From Pseudoscleropodium purum (taxonomy: Eukaryota > Streptophyta > Bryopsida > Hypnales > Brachytheciaceae): a stretch of 64,000 bases of DNA. Positions 13,905 to 54,710 of this stretch are shown here, one piece after another. The position numbers and the translations under genes are program-made. Numbering within the stretch: position 1 is the stretch's first letter; each line of letters begins with the position of its first letter. The notes under the pieces were generated by a model. It saw only the letters and a program-made list of their open reading frames with translations. It searched no databases and had not been told where the DNA came from. The stretch covers positions 25,856,501-25,920,500 of the forward strand of contig OZ017799.1 of NCBI GenBank assembly GCA_963969395.1, in the 5' to 3' direction.

Positions 13905-15840
13905 TAAAATAAACCCTCCTAAAATTCTAGAATAAGAAGCCTTACCAACTACAATATCAAGTTGCTAGAATTTCCAAAATAAGTATTTTCAACTCTTTCT
14001 AAATGGTTAGATTTCATCTTTCAAAATATTCACACAAAATGTAAAGATCTTACAACTTATTACCTTCCAATAGTATGTGGAAAAACTAAATTGGGAATAT
14101 ATATATAAATCTGAAACAAAAAAAATTCATATCCATGCTTGAAAAAAATACAAAATAGAAAGAAGGAGAGTATGATTTAAAATAATAAATTGTTAAAAAT
14201 TTTGCTATGGAATTAAGAAATGCAAATTCTAATGCTTATAATGTTGTAGTAAACAATCTATACCAATTCTCTAAGTGGGGGGCATTACTAATTTATTTAG
14301 ATGTAATGTGCAATCAAATGAAGGGTACTTTTAATTACCTTGGCCTAAATTTTAGACAATATTTAGAAGTAAGCTAGCATGGCTTAAATGCAATATTTTT
14401 CATTAAAAATAATGAAGGGTAGGGAATAATACACAAATTTACCAATTTTTTTTCTAAAATAACTAAGGGAAAAATATCCCTCTAAAACTTGAACTTTTAA
14501 ACATTATGGTAAGTAGAATATGAATATCCAAGGAGCTGGATCCTACGCTTTTGTAGACAATAGTTATGATTACTAATGGATGAAAACTAATAGAAGAGTT
14601 GCTATGGATGATGTTAAGTCAATTATGTTTATGATTAGCCTTCATTTTCTATTTCTATTTTTATGTACATAGACTTTAGCTTTTCACATTTTCAAAGCAT
14701 GATAGTGAAACTTCCTTTGTGTAGCCTTCAGTTCTAAATTGAATTCTTGGACTCCATCTTCAATCTATGGGTTATGTTTTTGAAAGCAAGGCTTGCATTT
14801 CTCCACAAAGCATTGTTTATTCTCAACCTAAACCCTAAATCCCTTGTGTACATGCTTTGAAAGAATATCTTACTAGATACTATGTCAACTACTTTGCCTA
14901 TGCCCTCATAAATAGTTTAAATATGTTGGAATAAAATTGTAGATATGAACTTCACTTTAAATGTGCTTGAATATATCAACTAGATGTTTTGGATTTAGAT
15001 TTCAATGTGCTAGAATGTATTGGCTGTTTTAGAATGTAGTGGACTTGAGTTCCTTTCAAAATGTTGCACTTTTTGTTGTCTACTATACGTTACATAGAGT
15101 ATCATGTATGCATGCCAAACTTTTAATAATAAACTCTTTTTTGATCCCATAAATGTTAATGAGAATCGCGCAATTCTTTGTTCAAAATCAACATAGGGTA
15201 CTAAAAAACACATGAATTTAAAAAAAAATTAAAGATAGGGTACACAAAATAAGCACAATTTAGAAATTTACATAAAGATTGCCCTATATAAATTCAATAA
15301 AATTACCTACATAGCCCCTTTACAATAGGGGCTTGAACACAAGTGATGTCTAAAGATACTATATAGTGCACCTCTCGAGCACCAATTGTTATAATTTTTT
15401 TCCCAAAATATTGAAAATTGACTTAAATAAAGGACTTCAAAGTTTATCTTAAAGTAGAGATTCTACAACTACCGGCAAACTAAAATTCTCCATATCTTTC
15501 ATTTTATTAATCAAAAGAAAATGGTTCAAAAATATCCCTGTACATATAAATCTAGAAACATAATTTTGAATTTTTATTGCTTAAAAAAGCAATTTTTTGA
15601 GCAACTTTTTGAGCTGCCTAAGTTGCATGTTGAGCAATGAAAAGTATAAATCATGAAAAAGCTTCTTAACCATAAAATCAAATTAAAGTTATAAAAAATA
15701 GTATGCCTTCAAAAGCTACTCTTTTGTCAAAAGTTGTGTGAAATTTTTAAAGATAAAAAAAATTTGTTCGTAATGAGTTGCTTCAAATCACTATGTTGCA
15801 ATAATGCATTATCTGAAACATCAAGGGTTAATTAGGATTT
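13905..15840 (+). repeat. Dispersed repeat, copy A
   Basis: This stretch aligns by eye, in order, with parts of 28.7-31.45 kb (copy B), 35.34-35.94 kb (copy C) and, in reverse orientation, the right flank at 53.78-54.71 kb (copy A'). Shared landmarks in order are CACCCTCCTAAAATT-like text, GTTAGATTTCATCTTT, the AGAAAGAAGGAGAGTATGA segment, and the block ending near AAATCACTATGTTGC. No long frame is kept, so it is non-coding or badly decayed. The outer boundary of the palindrome, near 15,031, falls inside it. Confidence 0.65.
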
Positions 15841-18800
15841 TCAAAAGAATTAAACACCTTATAACATTTTTCATCCAATCATTCTTCAAAGATAAATTAT
15901 AGATGCATTTAATGTACTATTATTCATTAATTTTTCTTCAAACTCATATTGAATTAGTTATGATGTTTTGAAGTTGGAATCAATGGTGATTTTCAAAAAG
16001 TATACATAACCTGAAATTGTCAAATTTGATATATTGAAAATTCCAATGCGTACTTGAGGGCCAAAAGACTTTTTGTGAAAAAAAGGGATTTTTTGAGCAT
16101 CCTACTATAATCAAGGAATCTCGTTGGTAAAATAAAGTATAAATTTCTTAGACATCAAAGTAAAAAACAAACCTAGAGTTGTACATTAATGCAATCTACC
16201 TGAGCTTACCTTCAACAAACATAGGCAAAATCAAGTAGGCTCTATATTCTATTAATTAGTCCTTGACCCTTTGGAAAGGTTTTCAATAGCCTCAAAGTCT
16301 AAAATCAACCTGAGTTGTAGTCCAAAACCTTTGATTAATTTCTACTTGTACGTATGGGTAAGTACAAAATTGTCATTAACCAAAAATAATCAAATTCATG
16401 CCTAGATGAAGACATGAATTTTGAAGATGTACAAGGTTTAAACATTAAAACTTTGTATCAATTAATTGTAAACTTATCACTGTATGCTAGAAATTCATAA
16501 CATGTTCTTACAATGTCTAAATAATGCATCATAAATTGTGTTGAATCTAATATTGTAAGTTTCTATAATATCCGGTTTAGAAATCTAAAGCTTAGTGAAA
16601 AGTTCCATTGCATATACTATGCTAAGTAGAATTTCTATTAGGGATACCAAATAAAAAAGCAAAATCAACCACTTTTAGAATCCTTTACAACTAGATTAAA
16701 AAAAATACTTTTTTTCAATTTATCTAATTACAAAATTTATCGGCCTCCACTTGTAGAGGTGACAAGAGTTAAAAATGTGCCCTAATTTATTTCTATCCTT
16801 TTTGGTCCTCCACATTTGTGAGTATCACTTTATCTACATTGCAGAAAATTCTAGGCCTTAGTTACGGTATTTGCTTACATGTAATTGTATAAATAAAAAA
16901 TTATTAGCCAAAACTGTCTCACAAAAAAATTGTTAGCCAAAGTCAAATTTTGTGCCCCTTCAAATTTCAATTTTTTTTTAATTTGAAAAAAAATAATATT
17001 AAAATAATTTGTTCTATAGGAGCATCCACCAAAAGTCAAACAATCCTCCACAAGGCCCAAACTTTTTGTAATGACTTTTTTATATGCAACTTATATTCTT
17101 CTTTCATTCAAGTTTATAGTTTATCTTTCAATTGGAAACTTACAACTAGACAATTAATATTTCACTAGCCAATTTGGAACTTATACCTTGAGTACTCACT
17201 AAATCACATGTTGACTTGAAATATGTCCTTACATGACAAAAATGGCATTTGTTGGCCCACATTTTGAACTTGGTTTTGAATTATTGTTTTTCTCTCATGT
17301 TTCCCTCCACACTTACTTCTCATTCATGTACTCAAATTCCAAATTGGATTATCACTAATTTGCAAACAATATCCTCAACTTTCCAACATTCATTTAATTA
17401 CTTGCTACACAAATATGACCTTCAATTCCACACTTACAAATGATTCTCCAATTCATCAAACATTCCTACAAATTAACTTTCTTATTTGATAATCTCTCAA
17501 TCACTTTGCAAACAAAACTTTCAATTGATTTAATATACAAACTCACTCATGTAAGTTGCAACAACTTTGAATATTATTCTCAATTAATCTCCAAATCACA
17601 AATCTAGGAACACACAATTAATTATCATAAAATTTTCCAACTAGTTTGTCTACAATAATACAATAGAATCAACACACAATTTGAAATTCAAACTTCCACA
17701 CAAACACAAATTTTAAACACTTCCAATTACTACACATAATGATCAATTGAAACATATACAAATACAATCACACATGCTCATCACACACCACCAATTTGAA
17801 TCTATATCCACACATAAGCCACAAACGGCATTTGATTTTAAGACAAGAAAATCACAAAACAAAACATGTCCAAAAGGATTGGACTCTCGTACTCATCTCA
17901 AAAGTGGGTGAAAAACAACTTGAATAGCTGAGTTTTAAATATCTAAATTGACATACATTATACATGTGTAAACAACTATCAAAATTACCAAATTCCTCAA
18001 ACTAAGTGCTAATAGTCTCTTTGTCCCTAAATAAATCCGGAGTTTCCAAATATACTTGTCCCAAATTAAATTTGAAATCGGCTCTTCACAACTTGATCCA
18101 CAACAATCAAAGATAGTTCAAATACCTTGAAGTAGATACCACAATGTAGTCAAAGTCTACAACTATTCAATCCTTCCAAAGGGAATTGAAATGCAACCTC
18201 TAATCAACCAAGGGTGATGAATTCAACCCACAATTGTAAAACACCCATTACTAACAAATCTCTTGTTGAGAAATTTCTTGGAGCTGAATTATGGGACATC
18301 GTTGGAATTGAATTTAGATGACACCATAGGACTTCCCTACACTGTTTAGCATTGCTCAAACAATGATCCAAATTAATAACACTGTAGCAATTCAAAAAGA
18401 GAGGAAATCTATGAATTTCAAAACATGTTTGTACTATCCACTGCTTCATTGTTGATTTCCATTCCTTCACGGCAAATAGGGTTGACTAGAAGTAATTATG
18501 CAATCTTTTGAAAATCGAAACACCCCACATGTTAATCTAGCCATATCTAGAAAATCCCAAGAATTATTTCAAGAGAGAGAGTATCAAACTAGTTTGGAAA
18601 ATGTTACCATTTACACTACCAAAATGGAACCAGAATGCCAATTTGCAATCATACCAAATCAAAAGCTTACTTACACTACAAAAAAACAAAGGTTTAAATG
18701 ACTTGTCCACAATGATTGCAGTAGTCATTTCTTCTCCACAATGGCAACCAAAGCAGTCATTTTGCAATCATTGTTGTATTGCGGTCATTGTGGACAAGTC

Positions 18801-19549
18801 ATTAATACCCTTGTTTTTTTAGTAGTGTTGGAGATTCCAAAGTCTACAAACTCACCCCAATTTTGACCTGAAAACGGCTCCACAAACATTTAATTTGTTA
18901 GCGACCCTACAAAGTTAACTCACTTTTGTTTTCACTAATTGTTCTTGCATAATCTTCTCATGTACTTCCAATTTGGCTGCCAAATCACTCGTTGTTGTGC
19001 TATGAAATAGTCTTAAATGTTTGTCCATGAAACTTTAGTAGTTGGAGTCTTTCATTACTTGAATTGAAGTCCCCCATGCATCAGCAATTAGCATTAGGAT
19101 TTCGAAGTGCACACACTCAATTGCAAAGAATTGCATTCACAATCAACTCCAAATTCTCAAGGCTGGATGAATTTTTTCACCATACGATTTAAGAAAATAA
19201 AACTACGGATAATTTCCCTAAAATTTTGACATCTATTCTTAGAATCATTTTCCGCCTGCTCTACTTTATAACTCGAACTACTGTAATGATAAGCTTTCGG
19301 CAACCCCGGCCAAGCCCAGGACGACATCCAAATTATTGAAGCCGAAGCCGGGACGCACTGCAGACCCGCCCGCCTCTGGAGGCCGATGGATGAAACCTAG
19401 AACATCATGTCACTTGGGCGTCTCAGTAAGGGGACGGACTGCGCCTCCTTTCGGTTCGTCGCCGTGGAGGATGAGAAGATCTATTAATTCATCCACGTGA
19501 ACGAATGTCGTCGACTCTGGCGCGGAAGAACGTACCGCGAGGGAGCTGG
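15841..19549. other. AT-rich intergenic DNA within left arm
   Basis: No gene is visible. The stretch includes a CACTA-like MITE at 18674-18827 and otherwise unassigned AT-rich sequence. Close to 19.2 kb composition rises toward the beta-adaptin promoter. The mirror image lies at about 49,261-52,969. Confidence 0.6.
18674..18827. mobile_element. Small CACTA-like MITE, 154 bp
   Basis: The left end CACTACAAAAAAACAAAGG pairs with the right end, whose reverse complement is CACTACTAAAAAAACAAGGG. The inverted match extends inward about 47 bases through ATGACTTGTCCACAATGA. Flanks TTA and TTG match at two of three positions, so the target duplication has decayed or the border is off by a base. It has no coding capacity. 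An identical copy sits in the right arm at 49983-50136. Confidence 0.7.
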
Positions 19550-19804
19550 CTGGACTCGTCTCTCTCCCCCCCCCCCTCTCTCTGTCTCTCCACTGGACGA
19601 CGACTGACCGAGCCGCAGACGAACTGATAATAATATCGACAGTTCCCCGATTACGGAACTTGTTGCTGCTGCTGCTGCTGCGGTGCAGCGCATTTTGGTT
19701 GCACCGATCCGTCGATCCTCGCCCGCAGTGAAACGCCCATTGTCCCTCGCGTCCTCCTTCTTCCTGCCGTGGTGCATGGTTTTTGGTACCCCCCGTGGGG
19801 CACG
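19550..19804 (+). promoter_or_regulatory. Beta-adaptin 5' leader, CT-rich with CTG run
   Basis: The sequence ahead of the beta-adaptin start is GC-rich and contains a C-run followed by CT repeats at about 19,561-19,591, and a short run of CTG triplets at about 19,665-19,682. CT-rich leaders are common in plant genes. The transcription start cannot be placed from sequence; a TTTATAA near 19,264-19,270 is a possible but unproven TATA box. The same leader is mirrored in the right arm. Confidence 0.45.
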
Positions 19805-19808
19805 ATGA
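19776..19808 (+). promoter_or_regulatory. uORF (10 codons) overlapping the main start as ATGA
   Basis: An ATG at 19776 opens a 10-codon frame out of phase with the adaptin. Its TGA (19806-19808) overlaps the main ATG (19805-19807) as ATGA. It begins only 29 bases upstream of the main start, so it lies in the mRNA unless the leader is extremely short. A stop-start overlap of this type permits termination-reinitiation or leaky scanning and could tune adaptin output. Function is inferred. Confidence 0.5.
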
Positions 19809-22800
19809 GCGGCCATGACGCCAAGTATTTCACCACCACCAAGAAGGGCGAGATCCATGAGCTCAAGGAGGAGCTCAATTCGCAATACAAGGTACGTTCC
19901 CCAGTTCGGCCATGTTCAGGGGTCTACGCCTCCTCCGTTTCGCCATTGGCGCTGCTCCCCCGGATTGTGGAACAGATTGGAGCGTGTTACGCTCCGCTGC
20001 GGAACTGCGCGCTCCAGGGTTGTAGTAAATACGCTGCTTTGGCGAAGACTTTTGCTGTGCGGATTTTGTGTTTGATTTAGGGTTAGGCGTTATGCAGCGG
20101 CAGTGGCTCTCTGGCATTCCCGCAGTGTTGGCATTCGTCGTGGCTCTGTGCTGACCCACTCCAAGCCCTGACCGCGCACATCGGTCCGCGGGGTAGCTCG
20201 AAGGGCTCTCGATCGGGACTGTGGAACAGGCAGCTGGCTTAGGTCACGGTGGGTTGACCGGGACATTTCTTCCCGTTCGAATCTCGCAGATTTCTTGGAA
20301 CGGAGATCGATGCCGATGGAATCAGTCACTCGTCTGTGATCCCCTGTTTGATCAATTCCATCCCAAGGGTGTCTTTCTGGTCGAACGTAGGTCAGGACCC
20401 CAATCAAACAGTAATGTCGTCGAAAGAGCTCGTCTGCCTCTCTTGCCAGAAGCTAATCAATGGTCCTAAGGATTGCCGTTCGACCCTTGGTTTCACAATT
20501 CAGTTTTGCGAAGGGGACCGCATTCTTAGACGCTGCCAGGGGTGTAGTACATGACCTGTCTCTTTGATGCCTGGATCCATTCATGGAGAGTGGGTCGCTC
20601 AAGAAAGTGCTCAGTAGTTACTCATTATCTCTGGGATGCCCTCGACGTCTGCGTGATCCCCTATACCTTCCAGAACTCCCCTTATCGGAGATTTTTGTGC
20701 TTCATTAGTGACGCTGATCCTATAATTCGTCAATTGTAGGACCAACTGTTCCGTCCGAACCAATAATCGAACCTTAATTGCTGCATCCAGCAATGTCGTG
20801 AGTTTGTCAGAATCGTGGTTGTCCATTTCTTAGCATTTACTCCGTGAGGATTCACACTTGCCGTCCGAACTGGTGCCTTTGGACTTCACCTCATACCCTG
20901 CTCGATATATTCCTTTTTTCATCCTCTCGCGTTCTTCTCAGCTTAGATTATGCAGTTGGTGTGGCTTGCTGCATATGTTTCTTGGTAGGAAAGCTCATCG
21001 AACTGTGCTTTATTTCCTACAGGTCTTTTGTGAATGCTTTGTTGTTTGATCGCCGACGATTTTGTTTCCAGTGAGGCTTTTTTCATCCTCTTCTACTGCA
21101 AGTGGGGTTGGTTGAGTTTGAATACCCGCGTACTCGGCGTTGGTGCTTGCTCCCTCGCGACACAGAATAACCTTTTGTGTTTGATGTGGCATACTGCAGG
21201 ACAAAAAGAAGGATGCAGTGAAGAAGGTTATTGCTGCAATGACCGTTGGTAAGGATGTGTCCATGCTGTTCACCGATGTGGTCAACTGCATGCAAACCGA
21301 AAATTTGGAGCTCAAGAAGCTTGTGTACTTGTACCTTATCAACTATGCCAAGAGCCACCCTGACTTGGCGATACTTGCCGTGAACACATTTGTGAAGGTT
21401 TGTAGTTTAAACTAACACGTTATATGCATGCCTTGATGTGTGTGTGTGTGTGTGTGTGTGTGTTTGTTTGACTACTTTAAGCGTGCAAGATGCCTCCAAG
21501 TTCTCATCCACTGATGCTCAGTAATATTTGACGGTATGGTTTATTTTGGTTATGATACCGGCGTTGATGATGACGGCGATGATGTTGAATTTCTTGCACA
21601 GGATTCTCAAGATCCAAATCCTTTGATACGAGCATTGGCTGTGAGGACAATGGGTTGTATCAGGGTCGACAAGATCACAGAGTATCTGTGTGACCCTCTT
21701 CAAAGGTGTCTGAAGGTTAGCTCTTGAGTGCCTTAATAATGTTTTATTCGTCTGAAGTCCGTTTGCTTTCATAGTTATGATTGTGATTTTTGGTATTGCA
21801 GCTATTTTGCCTGCTAGAAACGAGAGGAGGTGATACTTTTAGGCTATCCTGCGTGTTCCTTTATTATTAGGGGATGTAGAATCTGAAACAGTCACCTGCA
21901 AGATTCATGCCTCGAGAGAGCACCTTCTCGCTTTTGATTTAAATCGTTGCCCTTTTCCTATTTTATCGTCCATGTGCTTTCTTCTGGTATGGGAATTTTT
22001 CGTTTTTTCTTGCATCTTTCTCTGGTTATTCTTGGGTTTCTGAACTCGGTTGATTATGCAGGACGATGATCCTTACGTTCGAAAGACTGCAGCCGTTTGT
22101 GTAGCGAAGTTGCATGACATCAATGCAGAGCTGGTAGAGGACAGAGGGTTTCTGGAGTCCCTAAAGGACATGATATCCGATAGCAATCCCATGGTTGTTG
22201 CAAACGCCGTGGCAGCACTTGCTGAAATTCAAGAGGGTAGCAGCAAGAATATTTTTGAGATCACAAATCACACACTATTCAAGCTTTTGGCGGCTCTCAA
22301 TGAGTGCACAGAGTGCGTGTTCTCTAATTGCTTTTCTGTTTCTGGGCATGTCGGTTTAGATCACCCTAACTTTCAAATCCCTCTTACGCGAGAACAGATT
22401 ACAAGTGCAATGTTTCAGTCAAACCGCCCATGTTATTAAAGCCCTGCGAAGGATTATTTAACTCGATGGCAAACAGGCAGTACTGTTTTGAACGTAGAGT
22501 CTGATTGCAGGTGGGGCCAGGTTTTTATTTTGGATGCTTTATCTAAATACAAAGCGAAGGATATCCGTGACGCTGAGAATATTGTGGAGCGCATAACTCC
22601 TCGCCTGCAGCATGCCAATTGCGCTGTAGTTCTATCGGCCGTGAAGGTACTCTATTTGTGAATCCTCGCAGCTGTGGTGGTCCGTGTTGCCTGCTTCTTC
22701 TTCTGCCTCTTCTGGCAGACTCGACAGTCATCTGTGTCTTACTCCTCAGTTCGTGAGCAATTGTTGATGGTTGAGATCTTGTGGTGGGCAGCTGTCACCT

Positions 22801-25800
22801 AGTTGCCAAGGTTTTTTTGTAGTCACGTTAACAATCAAAGTCATACTGATTTGGGTGTTGTTATGAAGGTAATCTTGCTCCAAATGGAGCTCATTACCAG
22901 CACAGATGTTGTGCGAAACTTGTGTAAAAAGATGGCACCACCTTTGGTGACCCTTCTATCGGCCGAGCCTGAGATCCAGTATGTTGCACTTCGCAACATC
23001 AATCTTATTGTGCAGCGCCGTCCTGGAATTCTCGCACATGAGATCAAGGTTCACACTGAAAGCCCTTTCTTTGCTATTAATGCGTCTATAGCTGGGGTAT
23101 TCAGAGGAGCAATAGCAGACGCCCGTGGCCTATTTTTCGTGCATTGAACTGATGAACTAATCACGCCAGCAACGATGAATGTTTTATCGAGTCTGCCTTC
23201 TGTAACGCGATCGACACGCATAAGAGATGCTCAATCTATTTGCAGTTGAATTCGACGTTCAAAATGCAAGCTGTTTCTTTTGTTTTCGGATCAAGCCGTT
23301 CAATCTGACGCAGGTTTGTCTCATGTCCACAGGTGTTTTTCTGCAAGTACAACGATCCTATTTACGTGAAGATGGAGAAGCTGGAGATAATGATCAAACT
23401 CGCCTCTGACCGCAATATCGATCAGGTCTTGTTACCTATCTCTTCCCTCAATGTGGTGGACTTCTTTGAGATTAGCATTGTTCTCGAATGTTGATCTTGT
23501 CCCGAGTATGGGTTTGAATCTGGAGAGGTGAAGTTTTAGTACTGTGCAATGCAGGCATCCGAAGACAGAGAGATATTTGTCTGTGTAGAACCTTTAGCGT
23601 TTGGGATTCTATCAATTGATAAGCATGCTCCCTCATACAGGTTCTTTTGGAGTTCAAGGAGTATGCCACGGAAGTTGATGTCGATTTTGTGAGGAAAGCA
23701 GTTCGGGCCATAGGACGATGTGCAATCAAATTGGAGCGGGCGGCTGAGCGCTGTATTAATGTACTCTTGGATCTGATCAAGATCAAGGTCAACTACGTTG
23801 TTCAAGAAGCAATTATAGTGATCAAGGATATTTTTCGAAGATACCCTAATATGTAAGTGATCACAGCTGGATTTTGGACACTTCTCTGGAATTTGTTTTT
23901 TTAAGTGCTTTTCTCTGGTTCAGTTAAAATTGGTGTTTGCTTGTAGATGGGTTGTTGCCTTCTTTTATTGGGGCTAATGAGTATTCAATTGTCCTTTGAA
24001 CAGGTATGAGTCCATTATTGCTACACTTTGTGAAAGTTTAGATACTCTTGACGAGCCTGAAGCGAAGGTATTGCTTTGGACTTGGGGACATATATGCTCT
24101 TTTATTGCCCTGTGATCAAAGGCTTTGTGGTTGGTTTGTCTTTTTTATGCACACCGTTACATTATTCTCTTGTTATTGTTAATTTGGATTCGTTAAGGTT
24201 CCAAGGTTTTGCTTGTAATGATGTAATGTTTTGGCTCCGTATGCAGGCATCTATGATATGGATAATAGGTGAATATGCTGAGCGTATTGACAATGCAGAC
24301 GAGCTGCTTGAAAGTTTTCTTGAAACTTTCCCTGAAGAGCCTGCCCAGGTGCAGCTGCAACTTCTTACAGCTGCTGTGAAGCTTTTTCTGAAGAAGCCTA
24401 CTGAGGGTCCCCAACAGATGATTCAGGTACTTATCTTGCCTTCACCACTCTGATTTGGGCTTCCTCGTGTTTTTTAAGGACGCTCGTACACTGCTTGTGA
24501 ATGTTGTCATGTGCAGTTTCGCTGCAAGCAATGGGCGTTTTAAGTCCTTAGAAGGGCCACATGGCGCTAAGTGTGAGATATGAATAACATGCTGAACCGT
24601 ATTCTCATGTCCAGGTTGTGCTGAACAATGCTACGCAAGAAACCGATAATCCAGACTTGCGTGATCGTGCGTATGTGTATTGGCGTCTCCTTTCTACAGA
24701 CCCTGAGGTGTGTTGTTATTCGGTTTGCCAAATGTGCCCATGAATTTTAGGGGGTCCTCAGTAACAGGATGAATTGTGATGCCCCTGGCCCAAGCGTATA
24801 TCGCATCATATTTTTTTGATGGAAGTTTTTTGGCAGGATGCGAAGGTTTTAGTTCGTGTGCCGCATTGCGTTTGTATTTTTTTTGACAATGGTGTTTTCA
24901 GATTGTTGTGTATCAGAATCAGTGTTGTGTGAAAGTTTGAGATGAAACTAACCACTTGGATGTTCCTTCCAGGCTGCAAAAGACGTTGTTTTGGCTGAGA
25001 AGCCAACAATCAGTGATGATTCCAATAACTTAGACCCATCTCTTCTAGATGATTTGCTGGCTAATATCGCCACACTTGCATCTGTATATCACAAGCGCGC
25101 TGATGCATTTGTTAGTCGTGCGCGGGCAGTGGCTGCAAGAGAGGAAGACGATGAGTATGCTGATGGCCTGGATTCCGGGTCTGGCAATTCATCAGCTCCA
25201 GTTCCGGAGATGGCCACATCAAGCGCACCAGTGCCATCCACTACTGGTGCGGCTGTGCCTGCTGCTGGAAAAGGGGCAGCTGCTGCTCCAGCTCCTGTAC
25301 CTGATTTGTTAGGGGACCTAATGGGATTCGAATCAGCCTTGGTTCCAGTTGGACCTGCAACTGCTGCCGTTCCGTTAGAGTAAGCTTCCCACGCGTATTA
25401 GGCGTCCTGAATTGATTGGTTTGGGAAGTCCTCTTCAGTGCTGTTTTTTCAATTGGTTGGTGGCCGTCTGTTGCACATGGTCTGTCACAGTGTTTCAACT
25501 CCCTTTCCTACGAATATTTTTGTGTTTATATCGAGTTGGGTCATGGTTTCTGTATGGCATGCTCATATCCTGAGCGCTTTACAGATTTGATATCTTGTTC
25601 TACATACTTATAAAACACTGCTGTTTATGACTTGTATACAGGCCTCCTCTTCCTGTTCTCTTTCCAGCCACATCTGGCCAAGGTTTGCAAATATCTGGCC
25701 AACTGACAAGGCGCGAAGGAAAAGTGTTCTACAATCTCAAATTCGAGAATCATACTCAAACTCCTTTGGATAAATTCATGATCCAGTTCAACAAGAATAC

Positions 25801-28699: not shown

Positions 28700-28784
28700 A
28701 TTAGAATACACCCTCCTAAAATTTCAAACCAACAAACTTTACCAACTGTAAGATCAAGGTGCTTGAATTTAAAAAAGAAGTATT

Positions 28785-29211
<427 letters not shown>

Positions 29212-37762: not shown

Positions 37763-38085
37763 AAGCATTAGAAGATTTTTGGGGCCTTTGGATGCCTGCG
37801 AGTTATCACAGCCTGCGAACCCAAGAAACAGGTTCGACGTAGTGGTCTAACGTGGTTGAGCCCCTACCACATCATTGACCAATTATTATTATTATTTTTA
37901 TTATTTTTATTTTTATTTTTGCATTTGGAGACTGAATTATTATTATTATTATTATTTTTTTATTTAAAAAAAATTTATGAAAAAGAAAATTTTGACAGTG
38001 GGCCGTTCCCTTCGCTGCAGAGAACAGCTACGGAGGACCAAACCCGGAACAGGCTTCTGGACCCCCCAAAACTCTTCTAATGCTT
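37763..38085. mobile_element. MITE-like element, mirrored copy
   Basis: This is the right-arm copy of the 323-bp element at 30711-31033, with the same terminal inverted repeats. It arrived by the segmental inversion-duplication, not by separate transposition, because its flanks are also duplicated. Confidence 0.7.
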
Positions 38086-39584: not shown

Positions 39585-39703
<119 letters not shown>

Positions 39704-41890: not shown

Positions 41891-44800
41891 CTACTTCAAA
41901 AGGGACTCGATGGCTTCAAAGAACAATGGTGCCATTTCTGGGGTTGGCGTCTTCACTGCACACTTCACACTTGGAGAGCCCACTTTGCAGGTGAGCTCTA
42001 CAAGGAATGGAATGCTTGGAGGCACTTTGCCAGAGAGATATAAAACCTGCAATTTCACAGCTCCCAAATAAGCCCATGTAACATTGATCAAACTCGTGCA
42101 ACACCGATTCATATCCACAATAGTTTTCGTTAATTTATGAATCAATGTTCAGTACTTCGTTGTACAATGCTGTGATCTTCATATCCAAATGAGCACCCGA
42201 CAGAAAACGAAAACTCCTAGAACGCAAATAGACATACCTCTTGGTTTGTGTCCTTCAGCACCCGCCGTGCGATGTAGAAAAGATTAGTTGTAGCAAGTTT
42301 CTCCAAAGTGGCATCCACGTTTGTAATCACGGCATTGGGCAGGTCCTTAGAAACCTCGTGAGAATCAGGCAGTGCCTTCCAAGTCTGGTACAATTTTTTT
42401 GGTTTAGGCAAGATTAGCAAACAGATTTGCGAAGGAAAAGCAGGCAAGAAAATCCGACAAAGCTCAGAATATCCTTGAAAGGAAGAGCAGGCTCGCATTG
42501 AATTTCGTACAAACTCTCGCAAATACCTAAGCTCTAAAACAAAACCCAACGGGTTTGCAGGAAGAATGGTACCTCCAAGAACGATCCCCTTTCCATGCGG
42601 CCGTCTTCAACGAAAAGTACTTGCAACGGAATTTTGTCGGTAAAGTACCAGACAGGCTGCTGGTTGTTCTTAACAGCTACTTGAAGCGCGGAGTTGGGAG
42701 GACCCTCCGAGACGTTTTGAAAAAGAACCATAGGCAACAAGGTGCTTGCAGAGCCAGATGGCTGAATAATAGGTACCTATAAACATGATGGAACGATGGT
42801 CAGAGTTTAGGGCCAAGGCCAGACAACTACAAAGATGCAGTTTCTGCCAAAAACATGAGCCCGTATTTCTACTGACGTAAGAGCATGCATCACCGTAGCA
42901 TTACCCGATATCCATATTCAAGAGAAAAAGCTCCAGAAATTATGAACAATTCAAACAAACAAATTGAGAGATGAACCTGAAGAGGTCCTCCTGCAGCAAG
43001 ACCGAACGTATTCTTGTTGAACTGGATCATGAATTTATCCAAAGGAGTTTGAGTATGATTCTCGAATTTGAGATTGTAGAACACTTTTCCTTCGCGCCTT
43101 GTCAGTTGGCCAGATATTTGCAAACCTTGGCCAGATGTGGCTGGAAAGAGAACAGGAAGAGGAGGCCTGTATACAAGTCATAAACAGCAGTGTTTTATAA
43201 GTATGTAGAACAAGATATCAAATCTGTAAAGCGCTCAGGATATGAGCATGCCATACAGAAACCATGACCCAACTCGATATAAACACAAAAATATTCGTAG
43301 GAAAGGGAGTTGAAACACTGTGACAGACCATGTGCAACAGACGGCCACCAACCAATTGAAAAAACAGCACTGAAGAGGACTTCCCAAACCAATCAATTCA
43401 GGACGCCTAATACGCGTGGGAAGCTTACTCTAACGGAACGGCAGCAGTTGCAGGTCCAACTGGAACCAAGGCTGATTCGAATCCCATTAGGTCCCCTAAC
43501 AAATCAGGTACAGGAGCTGGAGCAGCAGCTGCCCCTTTTCCAGCAGCAGGCACAGCCGCACCAGTAGTGGATGGCACTGGTGCGCTTGATGTGGCCATCT
43601 CCGGAACTGGAGCTGATGAATTGCCAGACCCGGAATCCAGGCCATCAGCATACTCATCGTCTTCCTCTCTTGCAGCCACTGCCCGCGCACGACTAACAAA
43701 TGCATCAGCGCGCTTGTGATATACAGATGCAAGTGTGGCGATATTAGCCAGCAAATCATCTAGAAGAGATGGGTCTAAGTTATTGGAATCATCACTGATT
43801 GTTGGCTTCTCAGCCAAAACAACGTCTTTTGCAGCCTGGAAGGAACATCCAAGTGGTTAGTTTCATCTCAAACTTTCACACAACACTGATTCTGATACAC
43901 AACAATCTGAAAACACCATTGTCAAAAAAAATACAAACGCAATGCGGCACACGAACTAAAACCTTCGCATCCTGCCAAAAAACTTCCATCAAAAAAATAT
44001 GATGCGATATACGCTTGGGCCAGGGGCATCACAATTCATCCTGTTACTGAGGACCCCCTAAAATTCATGGGCACATTTGGCAAACCGAATAACAACACAC
44101 CTCAGGGTCTGTAGAAAGGAGACGCCAATACACATACGCACGATCACGCAAGTCTGGATTATCGGTTTCTTGCGTAGCATTGTTCAGCACAACCTGGACA
44201 TGAGAATACGGTTCAGCATGTTATTCATATCTCACACTTAGCGCCATGTGGCCCTTCTAAGGACTTAAAACGCCCATTGCTTGCAGCGAAACTGCACATG
44301 ACAACATTCACAAGCAGTGTACGAGCGTCCTTAAAAAACACGAGGAAGCCCAAATCAGAGTGGTGAAGGCAAGATAAGTACCTGAATCATCTGTTGGGGA
44401 CCCTCAGTAGGCTTCTTCAGAAAAAGCTTCACAGCAGCTGTAAGAAGTTGCAGCTGCACCTGGGCAGGCTCTTCAGGGAAAGTTTCAAGAAAACTTTCAA
44501 GCAGCTCGTCTGCATTGTCAATACGCTCAGCATATTCACCTATTATCCATATCATAGATGCCTGCATACGGAGCCAAAACATTACATCATTACAAGCAAA
44601 ACCTTGGAACCTTAACGAATCCAAATTAACAATAACAAGAGAATAATGTAACGGTGTGCATAAAAAAGACAAACCAACCACAAAGCCTTTGATCACAGGG
44701 CAATAAAAGAGCATATATGTCCCCAAGTCCAAAGCAATACCTTCGCTTCAGGCTCGTCAAGAGTATCTAAACTTTCACAAAGTGTAGCAATAATGGACTC

Positions 44801-47341
44801 ATACCTGTTCAAAGGACAATTGAATACTCATTAGCCCCAATAAAAGAAGGCAACAACCCATCTACAAGCAAACACCAATTTTAACTGAACCAGAGAAAAG
44901 CACTTAAAAAAACAAATTCCAGAGAAGTGTCCAAAATCCAGCTGTGATCACTTACATATTAGGGTATCTTCGAAAAATATCCTTGATCACTATAATTGCT
45001 TCTTGAACAACGTAGTTGACCTTGATCTTGATCAGATCCAAGAGTACATTAATACAGCGCTCAGCCGCCCGCTCCAATTTGATTGCACATCGTCCTATGG
45101 CCCGAACTGCTTTCCTCACAAAATCGACATCAACTTCCGTGGCATACTCCTTGAACTCCAAAAGAACCTGTATGAGGGAGCATGCTTATCAATTGATAGA
45201 ATCCCAAACGCTAAAGGTTCTACACAGACAAATATCTCTCTGTCTTCGGATGCCTGCATTGCACAGTACTAAAACTTCACCTCTCCAGATTCAAACCCAT
45301 ACTCGGGACAAGATCAACATTCGAGAACAATGCTAATCTCAAAGAAGTCCACCACATTGAGGGAAGAGATAGGTAACAAGACCTGATCGATATTGCGGTC
45401 AGAGGCGAGTTTGATCATTATCTCCAGCTTCTCCATCTTCACGTAAATAGGATCGTTGTACTTGCAGAAAAACACCTGTGGACATGAGACAAACCTGCGT
45501 CAGATTGAACGGCTTGATCCGAAAACAAAAGAAACAGCTTGCATTTTGAACGTCGAATTCAACTGCAAATAGATTGAGCATCTCTTATGCGTGTCGATCG
45601 CGTTACAGAAGGCAGACTCGATAAAACATTCATCGTTGCTGGCGTGATTAGTTCATCAGTTCAATGCACGAAAAATAGGCCACGGGCGTCTGCTATTGCT
45701 CCTCTGAATACCCCAGCTATAGACGCATTAATAGCAAAGAAAGGGCTTTCAGTGTGAACCTTGATCTCATGTGCGAGAATTCCAGGACGGCGCTGCACAA
45801 TAAGATTGATGTTGCGAAGTGCAACATACTGGATCTCAGGCTCGGCCGATAGAAGGGTCACCAAAGGTGGTGCCATCTTTTTACACAAGTTTCGCACAAC
45901 ATCTGTGCTGGTAATGAGCTCCATTTGGAGCAAGATTACCTTCATAACAACACCCAAATCAGTATGACTTTGATTGTTAACGTGACTACAAAAAAACCTT
46001 GGCAACTAGGTGACAGCTGCCCACCACAAGATCTCAACCATCAACAATTGCTCACGAACTGAGGAGTAAGACACAGATGACTGTCGAGTCTGCCAGAAGA
46101 GGCAGAAGAAGAAGCAGGCAACACGGACCACCACAGCTGCGAGGATTCACAAATAGAGTACCTTCACGGCCGATAGAACTACAGCGCAATTGGCATGCTG
46201 CAGGCGAGGAGTTATGCGCTCCACAATATTCTCAGCGTCACGGATATCCTTCGCTTTGTATTTAGATAAAGCATCCAAAATAAAAACCTGGCCCCACCTG
46301 CAATCAGACTCTACGTTCAAAACAGTACTGCCTGTTTGCCATCGAGTTAAATAATCCTTCGCAGGGCTTTAATAACATGGGCGGTTTGACTGAAACATTG
46401 CACTTGTAATCTGTTCTCGCGTAAGAGGGATTTGAAAGTTAGGGTGATCTAAACCGACATGCCCAGAAACAGAAAAGCAATTAGAGAACACGCACTCTGT
46501 GCACTCATTGAGAGCCGCCAAAAGCTTGAATAGTGTGTGATTTGTGATCTCAAAAATATTCTTGCTGCTACCCTCTTGAATTTCAGCAAGTGCTGCCACG
46601 GCGTTTGCAACAACCATGGGATTGCTATCGGATATCATGTCCTTTAGGGACTCCAGAAACCCTCTGTCCTCTACCAGCTCTGCATTGATGTCATGCAACT
46701 TCGCTACACAAACGGCTGCAGTCTTTCGAACGTAAGGATCATCGTCCTGCATAATCAACCGAGTTCAGAAACCCAAGAATAACCAGAGAAAGATGCAAGA
46801 AAAAACGAAAAATTCCCATACCAGAAGAAAGCACATGGACGATAAAATAGGAAAAGGGCAACGATTTAAATCAAAAGCGAGAAGGTGCTCTCTCGAGGCA
46901 TGAATCTTGCAGGTGACTGTTTCAGATTCTACATCCCCTAATAATAAAGGAACACGCAGGATAGCCTAAAAGTATCACCTCCTCTCGTTTCTAGCAGGCA
47001 AAATAGCTGCAATACCAAAAATCACAATCATAACTATGAAAGCAAACGGACTTCAGACGAATAAAACATTATTAAGGCACTCAAGAGCTAACCTTCAGAC
47101 ACCTTTGAAGAGGGTCACACAGATACTCTGTGATCTTGTCGACCCTGATACAACCCATTGTCCTCACAGCCAATGCTCGTATCAAAGGATTTGGATCTTG
47201 AGAATCCTGTGCAAGAAATTCAACATCATCGCCGTCATCATCAACGCCGGTATCATAACCAAAATAAACCATACCGTCAAATATTACTGAGCATCAGTGG
47301 ATGAGAACTTGGAGGCATCTTGCACGCTTAAAGTAGTCAAA

Positions 47342-47373
<32 letters not shown>

Positions 47374-49005
47374 TCAAGGCATGCATATAACGTGTTAGTT
47401 TAAACTACAAACCTTCACAAATGTGTTCACGGCAAGTATCGCCAAGTCAGGGTGGCTCTTGGCATAGTTGATAAGGTACAAGTACACAAGCTTCTTGAGC
47501 TCCAAATTTTCGGTTTGCATGCAGTTGACCACATCGGTGAACAGCATGGACACATCCTTACCAACGGTCATTGCAGCAATAACCTTCTTCACTGCATCCT
47601 TCTTTTTGTCCTGCAGTATGCCACATCAAACACAAAAGGTTATTCTGTGTCGCGAGGGAGCAAGCACCAACGCCGAGTACGCGGGTATTCAAACTCAACC
47701 AACCCCACTTGCAGTAGAAGAGGATGAAAAAAGCCTCACTGGAAACAAAATCGTCGGCGATCAAACAACAAAGCATTCACAAAAGACCTGTAGGAAATAA
47801 AGCACAGTTCGATGAGCTTTCCTACCAAGAAACATATGCAGCAAGCCACACCAACTGCATAATCTAAGCTGAGAAGAACGCGAGAGGATGAAAAAAGGAA
47901 TATATCGAGCAGGGTATGAGGTGAAGTCCAAAGGCACCAGTTCGGACGGCAAGTGTGAATCCTCACGGAGTAAATGCTAAGAAATGGACAACCACGATTC
48001 TGACAAACTCACGACATTGCTGGATGCAGCAATTAAGGTTCGATTATTGGTTCGGACGGAACAGTTGGTCCTACAATTGACGAATTATAGGATCAGCGTC
48101 ACTAATGAAGCACAAAAATCTCCGATAAGGGGAGTTCTGGAAGGTATAGGGGATCACGCAGACGTCGAGGGCATCCCAGAGATAATGAGTAACTACTGAG
48201 CACTTTCTTGAGCGACCCACTCTCCATGAATGGATCCAGGCATCAAAGAGACAGGTCATGTACTACACCCCTGGCAGCGTCTAAGAATGCGGTCCCCTTC
48301 GCAAAACTGAATTGTGAAACCAAGGGTCGAACGGCAATCCTTAGGACCATTGATTAGCTTCTGGCAAGAGAGGCAGACGAGCTCTTTCGACGACATTACT
48401 GTTTGATTGGGGTCCTGACCTACGTTCGACCAGAAAGACACCCTTGGGATGGAATTGATCAAACAGGGGATCACAGACGAGTGACTGATTCCATCGGCAT
48501 CGATCTCCGTTCCAAGAAATCTGCGAGATTCGAACGGGAAGAAATGTCCCGGTCAACCCACCGTGACCTAAGCCAGCTGCCTGTTCCACAGTCCCGATCG
48601 AGAGCCCTTCGAGCTACCCCGCGGACCGATGTGCGCGGTCAGGGCTTGGAGTGGGTCAGCACAGAGCCACGACGAATGCCAACACTGCGGGAATGCCAGA
48701 GAGCCACTGCCGCTGCATAACGCCTAACCCTAAATCAAACACAAAATCCGCACAGCAAAAGTCTTCGCCAAAGCAGCGTATTTACTACAACCCTGGAGCG
48801 CGCAGTTCCGCAGCGGAGCGTAACACGCTCCAATCTGTTCCACAATCCGGGGGAGCAGCGCCAATGGCGAAACGGAGGAGGCGTAGACCCCTGAACATGG
48901 CCGAACTGGGGAACGTACCTTGTATTGCGAATTGAGCTCCTCCTTGAGCTCATGGATCTCGCCCTTCTTGGTGGTGGTGAAATACTTGGCGTCATGGCCG
49001 CTCAT
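41891..49005 (-). CDS. AP-1/AP-2 beta-adaptin, right copy
   Basis: This is the second full beta-adaptin gene, transcribed leftward and facing the first. Exons (reading leftward): 49005-48919, 47610-47413, 47206-47093, 46746-46496, 46297-46162, 45939-45760, 45475-45383, 45167-44956, 44804-44741, 44561-44382, 44193-44101, 43835-43429, 43166-42977, 42776-42573, 42384-42238 and 42046-41891. The predicted 903-residue protein is identical to the left copy in every segment compared, with the same trunk, hinge and ear. The same splice signals, leader and uORF are kept, so nothing in the sequence marks it as a pseudogene. The only intragenic difference is one CA unit in intron 2. The stop codons of the two genes are about 15 kb apart, separated by arm and spacer repeats. 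Both copies should be transcribable if the promoter lies within the duplicated 3.8 kb upstream, which seems likely. Confidence 0.95.
47346..47373. repeat. (CA)14 microsatellite, right copy intron 2
   Basis: This is the mirrored counterpart of the (TG)13 tract at 21437-21462, one unit longer. Confidence 0.9.
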
Positions 49006-49034
49006 CGTGCCCCACGGGGGGTACCAAAAACCAT
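49002..49034 (-). promoter_or_regulatory. uORF overlapping the right adaptin start
   Basis: This is the mirror image of the 10-codon upstream frame at 19776-19808. Its TGA again overlaps the main ATG as ATGA. Confidence 0.5.
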
Positions 49035-49982
49035 GCACCACGGCAGGAAGAAGGAGGACGCGAGGGACAATGGGCGTTTCACTGCGGGCGAGGATCGACG
49101 GATCGGTGCAACCAAAATGCGCTGCACCGCAGCAGCAGCAGCAGCAACAAGTTCCGTAATCGGGGAACTGTCGATATTATTATCAGTTCGTCTGCGGCTC
49201 GGTCAGTCGTCGTCCAGTGGAGAGACAGAGAGAGGGGGGGGGGGAGAGAGACGAGTCCAGCCAGCTCCCTCGCGGTACGTTCTTCCGCGCCAGAGTCGAC
49301 GACATTCGTTCACGTGGATGAATTAATAGATCTTCTCATCCTCCACGGCGACGAACCGAAAGGAGGCGCAGTCCGTCCCCTTACTGAGACGCCCAAGTGA
49401 CATGATGTTCTAGGTTTCATCCATCGGCCTCCAGAGGCGGGCGGGTCTGCAGTGCGTCCCGGCTTCGGCTTCAATAATTTGGATGTCGTCCTGGGCTTGG
49501 CCGGGGTTGCCGAAAGCTTATCATTACAGTAGTTCGAGTTATAAAGTAGAGCAGGCGGAAAATGATTCTAAGAATAGATGTCAAAATTTTAGGGAAATTA
49601 TCCGTAGTTTTATTTTCTTAAATCGTATGGTGAAAAAATTCATCCAGCCTTGAGAATTTGGAGTTGATTGTGAATGCAATTCTTTGCAATTGAGTGTGTG
49701 CACTTCGAAATCCTAATGCTAATTGCTGATGCATGGGGGACTTCAATTCAAGTAATGAAAGACTCCAACTACTAAAGTTTCATGGACAAACATTTAAGAC
49801 TATTTCATAGCACAACAACGAGTGATTTGGCAGCCAAATTGGAAGTACATGAGAAGATTATGCAAGAACAATTAGTGAAAACAAAAGTGAGTTAACTTTG
49901 TAGGGTCGCTAACAAATTAAATGTTTGTGGAGCCGTTTTCAGGTCAAAATTGGGGTGAGTTTGTAGACTTTGGAATCTCCAA

Positions 49983-50136
49983 CACTACTAAAAAAACAAG
50001 GGTATTAATGACTTGTCCACAATGACCGCAATACAACAATGATTGCAAAATGACTGCTTTGGTTGCCATTGTGGAGAAGAAATGACTACTGCAATCATTG
50101 TGGACAAGTCATTTAAACCTTTGTTTTTTTGTAGTG
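49983..50136. mobile_element. Small CACTA-like MITE, mirrored copy
   Basis: This is the right-arm duplicate of the element at 18674-18827, with the same ends and flanks in inverted order. Confidence 0.7.
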
Positions 50137-52969
50137 TAAGTAAGCTTTTGATTTGGTATGATTGCAAATTGGCATTCTGGTTCCATTTTGGTAGTGTAAA
50201 TGGTAACATTTTCCAAACTAGTTTGATACTCTCTCTCTTGAAATAATTCTTGGGATTTTCTAGATATGGCTAGATTAACATGTGGGGTGTTTCGATTTTC
50301 AAAAGATTGCATAATTACTTCTAGTCAACCCTATTTGCCGTGAAGGAATGGAAATCAACAATGAAGCAGTGGATAGTACAAACATGTTTTGAAATTCATA
50401 GATTTCCTCTCTTTTTGAATTGCTACAGTGTTATTAATTTGGATCATTGTTTGAGCAATGCTAAACAGTGTAGGGAAGTCCTATGGTGTCATCTAAATTC
50501 AATTCCAACGATGTCCCATAATTCAGCTCCAAGAAATTTCTCAACAAGAGATTTGTTAGTAATGGGTGTTTTACAATTGTGGGTTGAATTCATCACCCTT
50601 GGTTGATTAGAGGTTGCATTTCAATTCCCTTTGGAAGGATTGAATAGTTGTAGACTTTGACTACATTGTGGTATCTACTTCAAGGTATTTGAACTATCTT
50701 TGATTGTTGTGGATCAAGTTGTGAAGAGCCGATTTCAAATTTAATTTGGGACAAGTATATTTGGAAACTCCGGATTTATTTAGGGACAAAGAGACTATTA
50801 GCACTTAGTTTGAGGAATTTGGTAATTTTGATAGTTGTTTACACATGTATAATGTATGTCAATTTAGATATTTAAAACTCAGCTATTCAAGTTGTTTTTC
50901 ACCCACTTTTGAGATGAGTACGAGAGTCCAATCCTTTTGGACATGTTTTGTTTTGTGATTTTCTTGTCTTAAAATCAAATGCCGTTTGTGGCTTATGTGT
51001 GGATATAGATTCAAATTGGTGGTGTGTGATGAGCATGTGTGATTGTATTTGTATATGTTTCAATTGATCATTATGTGTAGTAATTGGAAGTGTTTAAAAT
51101 TTGTGTTTGTGTGGAAGTTTGAATTTCAAATTGTGTGTTGATTCTATTGTATTATTGTAGACAAACTAGTTGGAAAATTTTATGATAATTAATTGTGTGT
51201 TCCTAGATTTGTGATTTGGAGATTAATTGAGAATAATATTCAAAGTTGTTGCAACTTACATGAGTGAGTTTGTATATTAAATCAATTGAAAGTTTTGTTT
51301 GCAAAGTGATTGAGAGATTATCAAATAAGAAAGTTAATTTGTAGGAATGTTTGATGAATTGGAGAATCATTTGTAAGTGTGGAATTGAAGGTCATATTTG
51401 TGTAGCAAGTAATTAAATGAATGTTGGAAAGTTGAGGATATTGTTTGCAAATTAGTGATAATCCAATTTGGAATTTGAGTACATGAATGAGAAGTAAGTG
51501 TGGAGGGAAACATGAGAGAAAAACAATAATTCAAAACCAAGTTCAAAATGTGGGCCAACAAATGCCATTTTTGTCATGTAAGGACATATTTCAAGTCAAC
51601 ATGTGATTTAGTGAGTACTCAAGGTATAAGTTCCAAATTGGCTAGTGAAATATTAATTGTCTAGTTGTAAGTTTCCAATTGAAAGATAAACTATAAACTT
51701 GAATGAAAGAAGAATATAAGTTGCATATAAAAAAGTCATTACAAAAAGTTTGGGCCTTGTGGAGGATTGTTTGACTTTTGGTGGATGCTCCTATAGAACA
51801 AATTATTTTAATATTATTTTTTTTCAAATTAAAAAAAAATTGAAATTTGAAGGGGCACAAAATTTGACTTTGGCTAACAATTTTTTTGTGAGACAGTTTT
51901 GGCTAATAATTTTTTATTTATACAATTACATGTAAGCAAATACCGTAACTAAGGCCTAGAATTTTCTGCAATGTAGATAAAGTGATACTCACAAATGTGG
52001 AGGACCAAAAAGGATAGAAATAAATTAGGGCACATTTTTAACTCTTGTCACCTCTACAAGTGGAGGCCGATAAATTTTGTAATTAGATAAATTGAAAAAG
52101 AGTATTTTTTTTAATCTAGTTGTAAAGGATTCTAAAAGTGGTTGATTTTGCTTTTTTATTTGGTATCCCTAATAGAAATTCTACTTAGCATAGTATATGC
52201 AATGGAACTTTTCACTAAGCTTTAGATTTCTAAACCGGATATTATAGAAACTTACAATATTAGATTCAACACAATTTATGATGCATTATTTAGACATTGT
52301 AAGAACATGTTATGAATTTCTAGCATACAGTGATAAGTTTACAATTAATTGATACAAAGTTTTAATGTTTAAACCTTGTACATCTTCAAAATTCATGTCT
52401 TCATCTAGGCATGAATTTGATTATTTTTGGTTAATGACAATTTTGTACTTACCCATACGTACAAGTAGAAATTAATCAAAGGTTTTGGACTACAACTCAG
52501 GTTGATTTTAGACTTTGAGGCTATTGAAAACCTTTCCAAAGGGTCAAGGACTAATTAATAGAATATAGAGCCTACTTGATTTTGCCTATGTTTGTTGAAG
52601 GTAAGCTCAGGTAGATTGCATTAATGTACAACTCTAGGTTTGTTTTTTACTTTGATGTCTAAGAAATTTATACTTTATTTTACCAACGAGATTCCTTGAT
52701 TATAGTAGGATGCTCAAAAAATCCCTTTTTTTCACAAAAAGTCTTTTGGCCCTCAAGTACGCATTGGAATTTTCAATATATCAAATTTGACAATTTCAGG
52801 TTATGTATACTTTTTGAAAATCACCATTGATTCCAACTTCAAAACATCATAACTAATTCAATATGAGTTTGAAGAAAAATTAATGAATAATAGTACATTA
52901 AATGCATCTATAATTTATCTTTGAAGAATGATTGGATGAAAAATGTTATAAGGTGTTTAATTCTTTTGA

Positions 52970-54710
52970 AAATCCTAATTAACCCTTGATGTTTCAGATA
53001 ATGCATTATTGCAACATAGTGATTTGAAGCAACTCATTACGAACAAATTTTTTTTATCTTTAAAAATTTCACACAACTTTTGACAAAAGAGTAGCTTTTG
53101 AAGGCATACTATTTTTTATAACTTTAATTTGATTTTATGGTTAAGAAGCTTTTTCATGATTTATACTTTTCATTGCTCAACATGCAACTTAGGCAGCTCA
53201 AAAAGTTGCTCAAAAAATTGCTTTTTTAAGCAATAAAAATTCAAAATTATGTTTCTAGATTTATATGTACAGGGATATTTTTGAACCATTTTCTTTTGAT
53301 TAATAAAATGAAAGATATGGAGAATTTTAGTTTGCCGGTAGTTGTAGAATCTCTACTTTAAGATAAACTTTGAAGTCCTTTATTTAAGTCAATTTTCAAT
53401 ATTTTGGGAAAAAAATTATAACAATTGGTGCTCGAGAGGTGCACTATATAGTATCTTTAGACATCACTTGTGTTCAAGCCCCTATTGTAAAGGGGCTATG
53501 TAGGTAATTTTATTGAATTTATATAGGGCAATCTTTATGTAAATTTCTAAATTGTGCTTATTTTGTGTACCCTATCTTTAATTTTTTTTTAAATTCATGT
53601 GTTTTTTAGTACCCTATATTGATTTTGAACAAAGAATTGCGCGATTCTCATTAACATTTATGGGATCAAAAAAGAGTTTATTATTAAAAGTTTGGCATGC
53701 ATACATGATACTCTATGTAACGTATAGTAGACAACAAAAAGTGCAACATTTTGAAAGGAACTCAAGTCCACTACATTCTAAGACAACCAATACATTTGAG
53801 TACATTGAAAGTGAAGTTCGGAACATTAGTTACAATCCAACACATTGAAACTGGAACTACTTATAAAGGCATGGACAAAGTAGTAGACATAGCATTCTGG
53901 AGTATATTCTTTCAATACATGTACACAAAGGGCTTAGGTTTTAGGGTGAGTGAAAACAATGTCTTGTGTAGAATTGTAAGTCTTGTGTTCACAAGCACAA
54001 TTCCTAGATTGAAGATGGAGTCGAAGAATATAATTAGAGACTAAAGGCAAAACGAAGGAACTTTCGTTGTCATCTTTTGAAAATGGGAAAAGTTAAGGTT
54101 TGTGTATATGAAAACACAATGAAAAAATGAAAACTAAATGTAAACATAATGTTTACGTAATGTCATCCATGACAATTCATCTACTAGTTTTTATCCATTG
54201 ACAGTTACTATTGTTGTCTACAAAAGCGTAGGATCCAGCTCTTTAAATACTTATATTCTACTAACCATAGTTTTTTAAAGTTCAAATTTTGGAGGGATCC
54301 TTTAGCCTAAGCTACTTTAGTAAAAGAATTGGTAAAATTGTGTATTATTCCCTACCTTTTATTATTTATAAGGAATAATATCGCATTTTAGTGATGCTAA
54401 CTTACTTCAAACTATTGTCTAAAATTTAGGCCAAGGTAATTTAAAGTATCCTTCATTTGATTGCACGTTACATCTAAATAAATTAGAAATGCCCCCCACT
54501 TAGAGAATTGGTATAGATTGTTTATTACAACATTATAAGCATTGGAATTTGTATTTCTCAATTCCATAACAAAATTCTTAACAAATTAGTATTTTAAATC
54601 ATACTCTCCTTCTTTCTTCTTAGTATTTTTTCCAAACATGAATATGAAAATAGAAATTTTTTTCCTACATTTATCCTAGAGAACATAAAATTCACCCTAC
54701 TTGTTCTACT
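52970..54710 (-). repeat. Mirrored repeat A joined to diverged copy A'
   Basis: Up to about 53,779 this is identical to the inner part of repeat copy A (15,031-15,840). Beyond that it continues as the same repeat family in the same inverted register, but clearly diverged (by eye about four bases in five match), pairing with roughly 14.1-15.03 kb. Anchors include ATTGTTGTCTACAAAAGCGT against its counterpart near 14,550-14,570, and the GCCCCCCACTTAGAGAATTGG block near 54,490. The junction between identical and diverged sequence is the outer breakpoint. Confidence 0.75.

Follow-up and report, generated by a model that had tools for sequence, protein, structure and literature searches.

A near-perfect palindrome carrying two identical beta-adaptin genes in the moss Pseudoscleropodium purum, probably an older inverted pair recently overwritten

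We consider it probable that the 64,000 nucleotides of Pseudoscleropodium purum DNA analysed here (the window: positions 25,856,501-25,920,500 of a 26.45-Mb contig, in an assembly of 313 Mb and 52 contigs) contain a real inverted repeat, in which templated copying subsequently rewrote 17.4 kb of an older inverted pair. This reading is suggested by an outer flank that is diverged yet colinear on the two sides, and by a switch from divergence to near-identity that falls inside one transposon-like insert. Two layers of one inverted pair, an old one and a recent one, seem to lie next to each other here, with the switch between them at one known transposon position, and the locus thereby preserves a legible history of how DNA was copied from one inverted repeat to the other.

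Comparison of the window with itself gave one dominant inverted repeat (36320-53853 against 32476-14953) and, together with a base-by-base alignment, bore out the original prediction of a near-perfect palindrome with arms of about 17.45 kb and a spacer of 3.84 kb, whose proposed arm-spacer junctions at 32,476 and 36,320 match the last and first identical bases of the arms (Table 1). Beyond position 15100 the two arms differ at only 2 of 17,377 aligned positions, and arms of more than 99.9% identity thus enclose an unmirrored spacer; a chance origin of this similarity is excluded by the length and identity of the arms. The three coordinate sums from which a continuous duplication had been argued (68,796, 68,808 and 68,810) are real and are explained by the two microsatellite steps of 12 bp and 2 bp. 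Calling the palindrome giant was generous as to its size, since the arms of the willow palindrome W.P1 measure 19.6 and 20.1 kb. Within a contiguous 274 kb (less than 0.1% of the genome), no other inverted match among those above 400 bp was longer than 1.3 kb (97% identity). The MITEs proposed for both arms were seen as an inverted pair of repeats of about 84 bp (28167-28250 and 31563-31644, 84.5% identical) within each arm, which are possibly MITE copies. The spacer also has a tandem array of 32/64-bp units (34334-34563), and scans for tRNA genes and Rfam families gave no hits.

Arms as nearly identical as these would also suit an assembly fold-back, in which only a single arm is real. This is unlikely, as it would require two false joins, one of them falling exactly at the corresponding site of a transposon composite that is real and diverged, and as the 3.8-kb spacer is unmirrored and two bases and two microsatellites distinguish the arms. 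Moss gametophytes are haploid, and for that reason a mixing of haplotypes is less likely too, if gametophyte tissue was sequenced.

Table 1. Coordinates of the palindrome, its transposon composites and its gene copies, as positions in the window
Feature	Position	Strand	Remarks
Left composite, host element interrupted by nested insert	14045..15807	+	Genome and window searches
Diverged outer flank, left	14126..15028	+	K2P 0.19 (143 differences in 858 aligned bases); colinear with arm
Nested transposon-like insert	14277..15374	+	About 1.1 kb, dispersed family; right counterpart about 54497-53436
Left palindrome arm	15029..32476	+	17,448 bp; 2 substitutions and 2 microsatellite length changes relative to right arm
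Arm substitution	15192 (right partner 53618)	.	Base-by-base alignment
Arm substitution	16710 (right partner 52100)	.	Base-by-base alignment
Beta-adaptin CDS, left copy	19805..26917	+	16 exons, 903 aa, intact
TG/CA run	21437-21467 left, 47341-47373 right		2-bp length difference between arms
AT microsatellite	29107-29164 left, 39632-39701 right	+ for left	Left copy 12 bp shorter
Open frame of degenerate retroelement-like stretch	32216..32626	+	Crosses left inner joint unbroken
Spacer, unmirrored	32477..36319	.	3,843 bp; one copy of host-transposon family at 34982-35905
Right inner joint, read as the novel one	36319..36320	.	No useful microhomology
Right palindrome arm	36320..53781	-	17,462 bp; self-comparison and base-by-base alignment
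Beta-adaptin CDS, right copy	41891..49005	-	Identical to left copy
Right composite, same host, same outer insert-host joint	53003..54652	-	Genome and window searches
Diverged outer flank, right	53782..54648	-	Aligned partner of left flank

The outer edges had been placed at 15,031 and 53,779, and near-identity does end there (at 15029 and 53781), but mirror homology does not: overlooked until now, it continues for about 0.9 kb past both arms, at about 83% identity, to approximately 14126 and 54648. On each side it leads through a host transposon interrupted by a nested insert. The host element is a dispersed one, with eight further places and two weak partial ones in the 200 kb that adjoin the window on its right. 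The outer joint between insert and host lies at the same host base on both sides of the palindrome, and the insert has the same orientation in both composites, which are colinear up to the arm edge; of the two insert-host joints only this outer one is informative, the inner one sitting in the overwritten arm. A genome search with positions 14045-15807 gave at least 66 matches (64 besides the palindrome edges, host pieces included), and among these a host-insert-host succession was confined to the two edges of the palindrome. As 40 of 5447 first-look candidates were scored, all such counts of inserts and composites are lower bounds, and a third composite, of which there was none among the matches scored, may have been missed.

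These families are common enough to raise the alternative of a recent inverted duplication whose outer end happens to fall in two independent insertions of the same transposons, with no older duplication behind it, in which case transposon homology may still have primed the duplication. Host and insert families do meet independently, because pieces of both lie, in other arrangements, at two more places: on contig C43 (14,320,570-14,322,253) two host pieces are adjacent and uninterrupted about 0.5 kb beyond an insert copy, and on contig C48 (1,320,782-1,323,623) a host piece stands in opposite orientation between two insert pieces. By raw distance, moreover, the two inserts show no greater likeness to one another than to the majority of other copies. 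Over the part that was not homogenised (14290-15028) their K is 0.245, and among six other copies taken from the genome search, some of them partial, five are nominally closer to the left insert (K 0.206-0.243) and three to the right one (K 0.215-0.230). Even so, we give independent insertions only a small probability, since they would have had to produce an outer joint that agrees to the base, in the same orientation and colinear to the arm edge, an arrangement without a third instance among the 40 candidates scored (of 5447), and since the host parts are closer to each other (124 of 138 bases, 0.90) than to nine other host copies (0.76-0.85 for the left part and 0.77-0.87 for the right), these nine being the ten well-shown copies outside the palindrome edges less c145. 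A tree of the same un-homogenised part of the insert does pair left with right, with support of 0.79 and a stem of 0.017; descent of both composites from one older duplication is less firm, and draws on this stem, short and weakly supported as it is, on the host part and on the joint that the two sides have in common. For the outer flank, a patchwork of conversion tracts was considered and rejected: identity drops from 88-96% over the outermost 250 bp to 70-85% closer to the switch, but this gradient proves nothing, because the insert family generally matches better over its first 370 bp or so.

The switch itself, at 15028/15029, lies inside the nested insert, so that one joint of the recent layer is situated within homologous sequence. 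Across three successive parts of the insert (14290-14620, 14621-15028 and 15031-15360), K between left and right is 0.19, 0.30 and 0.003, against means of 0.21, 0.20 and 0.17 among the six other copies. Slow evolution of that part of the insert does not account for the near-identity inward of the switch, because the other copies average 0.17 there.

The other joint has a different character. Identity runs to 32476/36320 and then stops with a mismatch directly after the last identical base, and at the right inner joint no microhomology was found beyond two later bases that agree by chance. The left inner joint looks ancestral and the right one new, provided that the spacer has not flipped, a change that the identical arms would allow; this polarity is suggested by the retroelement-like open frame that runs unbroken through the left joint. 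That frame had no Pfam match, and by eye we take it to resemble plant DUF4283/zinc-knuckle ORFs. Its only match in the genome was the right-arm copy: a search with positions 31500-34300, covering the query up to its base 2547, returned besides that copy the 84-bp repeat within the arms and a pair of short, weak hits, one of about 110 bp (76% identical) and one of about 80 bp (75% identical). Dating by this relic was accordingly abandoned, as its sole match yields no age. A 7-bp hairpin motif (GGATATG, seven bases, CATATCC) lies across the right inner joint, at 36305-36325.

The order of events that we propose, from one assembly, is therefore insertion, inverted duplication soon afterwards, long divergence, and recent templated copying of 17.4 kb, an order suggested by the tree pairing, the closer host parts and the shared outer joint. 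In an old first step, an inverted duplication would have taken in a piece of the locus that included the host transposon, already carrying its insert; the composites that it left on either side have drifted apart since then, to a K of 0.19-0.25. The sharpness of the switch suggests a recent second step, in which recombination between the inverted homologous stretches would have replaced 17.4 kb of one side by a copy of the other, the copied tract ending outward inside the nested insert (15028/15029) and inward at the right joint (36319/36320); only two substitutions and two microsatellite changes would have arisen afterwards. The template was likely the left arm, unless the spacer has flipped since, because the open frame continues unbroken from that arm into the spacer. 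The divergence of the flank points to an older inverted pair, and not to a whole arm of that age. At a substitution rate near 1e-8 per site per year for mosses, the flank would date back about 10 million years and the arms some thousands, as orders of magnitude only.

Two variants of this overwriting may be distinguished. The original prediction had named a very recent event or continuing conversion between the arms, which was the right pair of options, and we give the two variants equal odds. In one variant, the first step duplicated a whole 18-kb unit (14126-32476, mirrored), and gene conversion has since kept this old palindrome identical, only its outermost 0.9 kb escaping. We regard this, taken alone, as possible but short of probable. 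It is economical, a single duplication being enough; the composite arrangement, matched only at the two palindrome edges among the 40 candidates scored (of 5447), fits it; and in Physcomitrella the high similarity noted among tandem genes suggests gene conversion (PMC3045890). It does not sit easily with an inner edge that has no eroded zone (the last identical base is 32476) where the outer edge lost 0.9 kb. The GC content of the intergenic parts of the arms (0.305 and 0.333) is also not raised above that of the spacer (0.324) and flanks (0.291, 0.315 and 0.339), unlike that of primate X palindromes (PMC8981503), although such a rise is no strict requirement. In the other variant, the first step duplicated a smaller, outer part, and the right arm was built in one recent event: a broken right end would have invaded the left composite through the older inverted homology, copied 17.4 kb, and been joined to the spacer without homology. 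One joint inside homology and another without it, identity that is perfect right up to the inner joint, and GC that is not raised in the arms are all in keeping with such an event, as are the products of homologous recombination at one end and end joining at the other that are common in moss gene targeting (PMC6521618). This variant would need the composite to have undergone an inverted duplication of its own at an earlier time, and an invasion through homology of about 80%, which is poor fuel for strand invasion, and we hold it with the same reserve as the first. The outcome of both would be two identical, intact coding regions for a clathrin-adaptor subunit.

The original prediction of two identical, convergent 16-exon beta-adaptin genes was confirmed, the coding regions being identical, intact and arranged tail to tail. 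All 16 exons of the left copy were found letter for letter in the right arm, and the coding sequence of 2,712 nt has an open reading frame throughout. Of its 15 introns, 14 are GT-AG by their borders, and the remaining one has its acceptor AG at 25640-25641, with exon 13 beginning at 25642. The protein is a full-length beta-adaptin (AP-1/AP-2 beta subunit), with the Adaptin_N trunk (PF01602, E 2e-167) followed by the appendage domains PF02883 and PF09066. Among the best 120 of 7648 protein matches, the closest are from mosses: Ceratodon purpureus (96% identity over 100% of the query), Physcomitrium patens (94% and 93%), one further protein at 91%, and Sphagnum (89%). The closest of these is recorded as M758_2G105600 of Ceratodon purpureus, a name in which "2G" can do no more than hint at a numbered chromosome in that species. 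A DNA search of the genome with positions 19300-27000 gave three matches, namely the two arms and a relic of 0.23 kb on contig C40. At the DNA level the pair thus appears to stand alone, no other full copy having been found by this search, and an expansion of the beta-adaptin family, which was also considered, is unsupported. The relic (C40:25482995-25483226) corresponds to the exon-2 region and the preceding intron, at 79% identity, and there was no further exon match in the 3.2 kb read around it. A clathrin-adaptor gene has therefore been doubled in a genome that seems to have no other full copy of it at the DNA level, and this is also a warning, as collapsed assemblies would display a single gene at the beta-adaptin locus.

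Each copy has 4.8 kb of upstream DNA within its arm, in which only two bases differ between the copies. Over the gene the CpG observed/expected ratio stands at 0.77, while intergenic parts of the arm have 0.30 and 0.38, and on that account the gene shows no long-standing methylation scar. The tail-to-tail genes need not interfere with each other, because their coding sequences end 15 kb apart (26917 and 41891). In rice Lgc1, a tail-to-tail pair of glutelin genes causes silencing by double-stranded RNA; near-identical convergent genes are common to both cases, and it is this distance of 15 kb that sets the moss pair apart.

Several other genes lie outside the arms. To the left are exons of a LEO1 (PAF1 complex) gene, at about 5.1-10.3 kb on the forward strand (limits by eye), of which 7722-7955 matches the Pfam family Leo1, and a piece of a Sep15/SelM-like gene on the reverse strand (11427-11711, Pfam Sep15_SelM), whose first exon may be the reverse-strand open frame at 12216-12626, itself without a Pfam match. 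To the right there is a forward-strand gene with RRM and zinc-knuckle domains (57592-60182; RRM_1 at 58604-58885, RRM_1 and zf-CCHC at 59724-60179), which we assume to be perhaps like plant PHIP1, and a degenerate retrotransposon on the reverse strand (60902-63149), presumably of the Ty3/gypsy type, with matches to RNase H, the end of a reverse transcriptase, an integrase zinc-binding domain and an integrase core in 60902-62387.

A palindrome millions of years old, lying outside a sex-limited region and keeping a housekeeping pair identical by gene conversion from arm to arm, is a tentative and rather doubtful proposition for this locus. If it is true, palindromes maintained by conversion would be characteristic of plants whose homologous recombination is very active, and not of sex chromosomes. 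Among known systems, human inverted duplications and triplications are primed by inverted low-copy repeats, their other joint being formed by microhomology or end joining; those are disease loci, and their priming repeats are far more alike than the approximately 80% available in the moss. No palindrome from a moss was named in the titles of the literature searched, which does not imply absence from print, and the nearest plant case found is the W palindrome of willow. The arms of Salix purpurea W.P1 are 20,071 and 19,550 bp long, with a spacer given as 3,586 bp in the table and 2.6 kb in the text, and its four arms average more than 99% identity, bear genes, and are argued to undergo gene conversion (PMC7023750). 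Arm size, spacer size and the presence of genes in the arms are alike in the two plants; the willow palindrome belongs to a female-specific region, has four related arms and draws support from comparison between species (PMC7023750), whereas the moss has two arms and a sign of its own in the diverged flank, and the parallel to sex chromosomes drawn in the original prediction is conjectural for it. Primate X palindromes likewise have long inverted arms with genes, at a median identity of 99.953%, and share with the moss long, near-identical, gene-bearing arms, but theirs are richer in GC than the flanks (PMC8981503) and those of the moss are not. A further comparison is with gene targeting in Physcomitrella, where about 50% of events combine homologous recombination at one end with end joining at the other (PMC6521618); a joint with homology and a joint without it are thus seen in both cases, both in mosses, although experimental constructs are involved in the former and a putative natural chromosomal event in the latter. 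With its outer end inside homology and its inner end without it, the moss palindrome suggests one-ended invasion followed by end joining, but an old 18-kb palindrome homogenised by conversion would give the same picture of the joints. The locus is a natural test of recombination between inverted repeats in mosses, plants known for efficient gene targeting. Large converting palindromes are already known, and this one would add another; its special value, beside the systems compared here, is a switch point that falls within a nested transposon.
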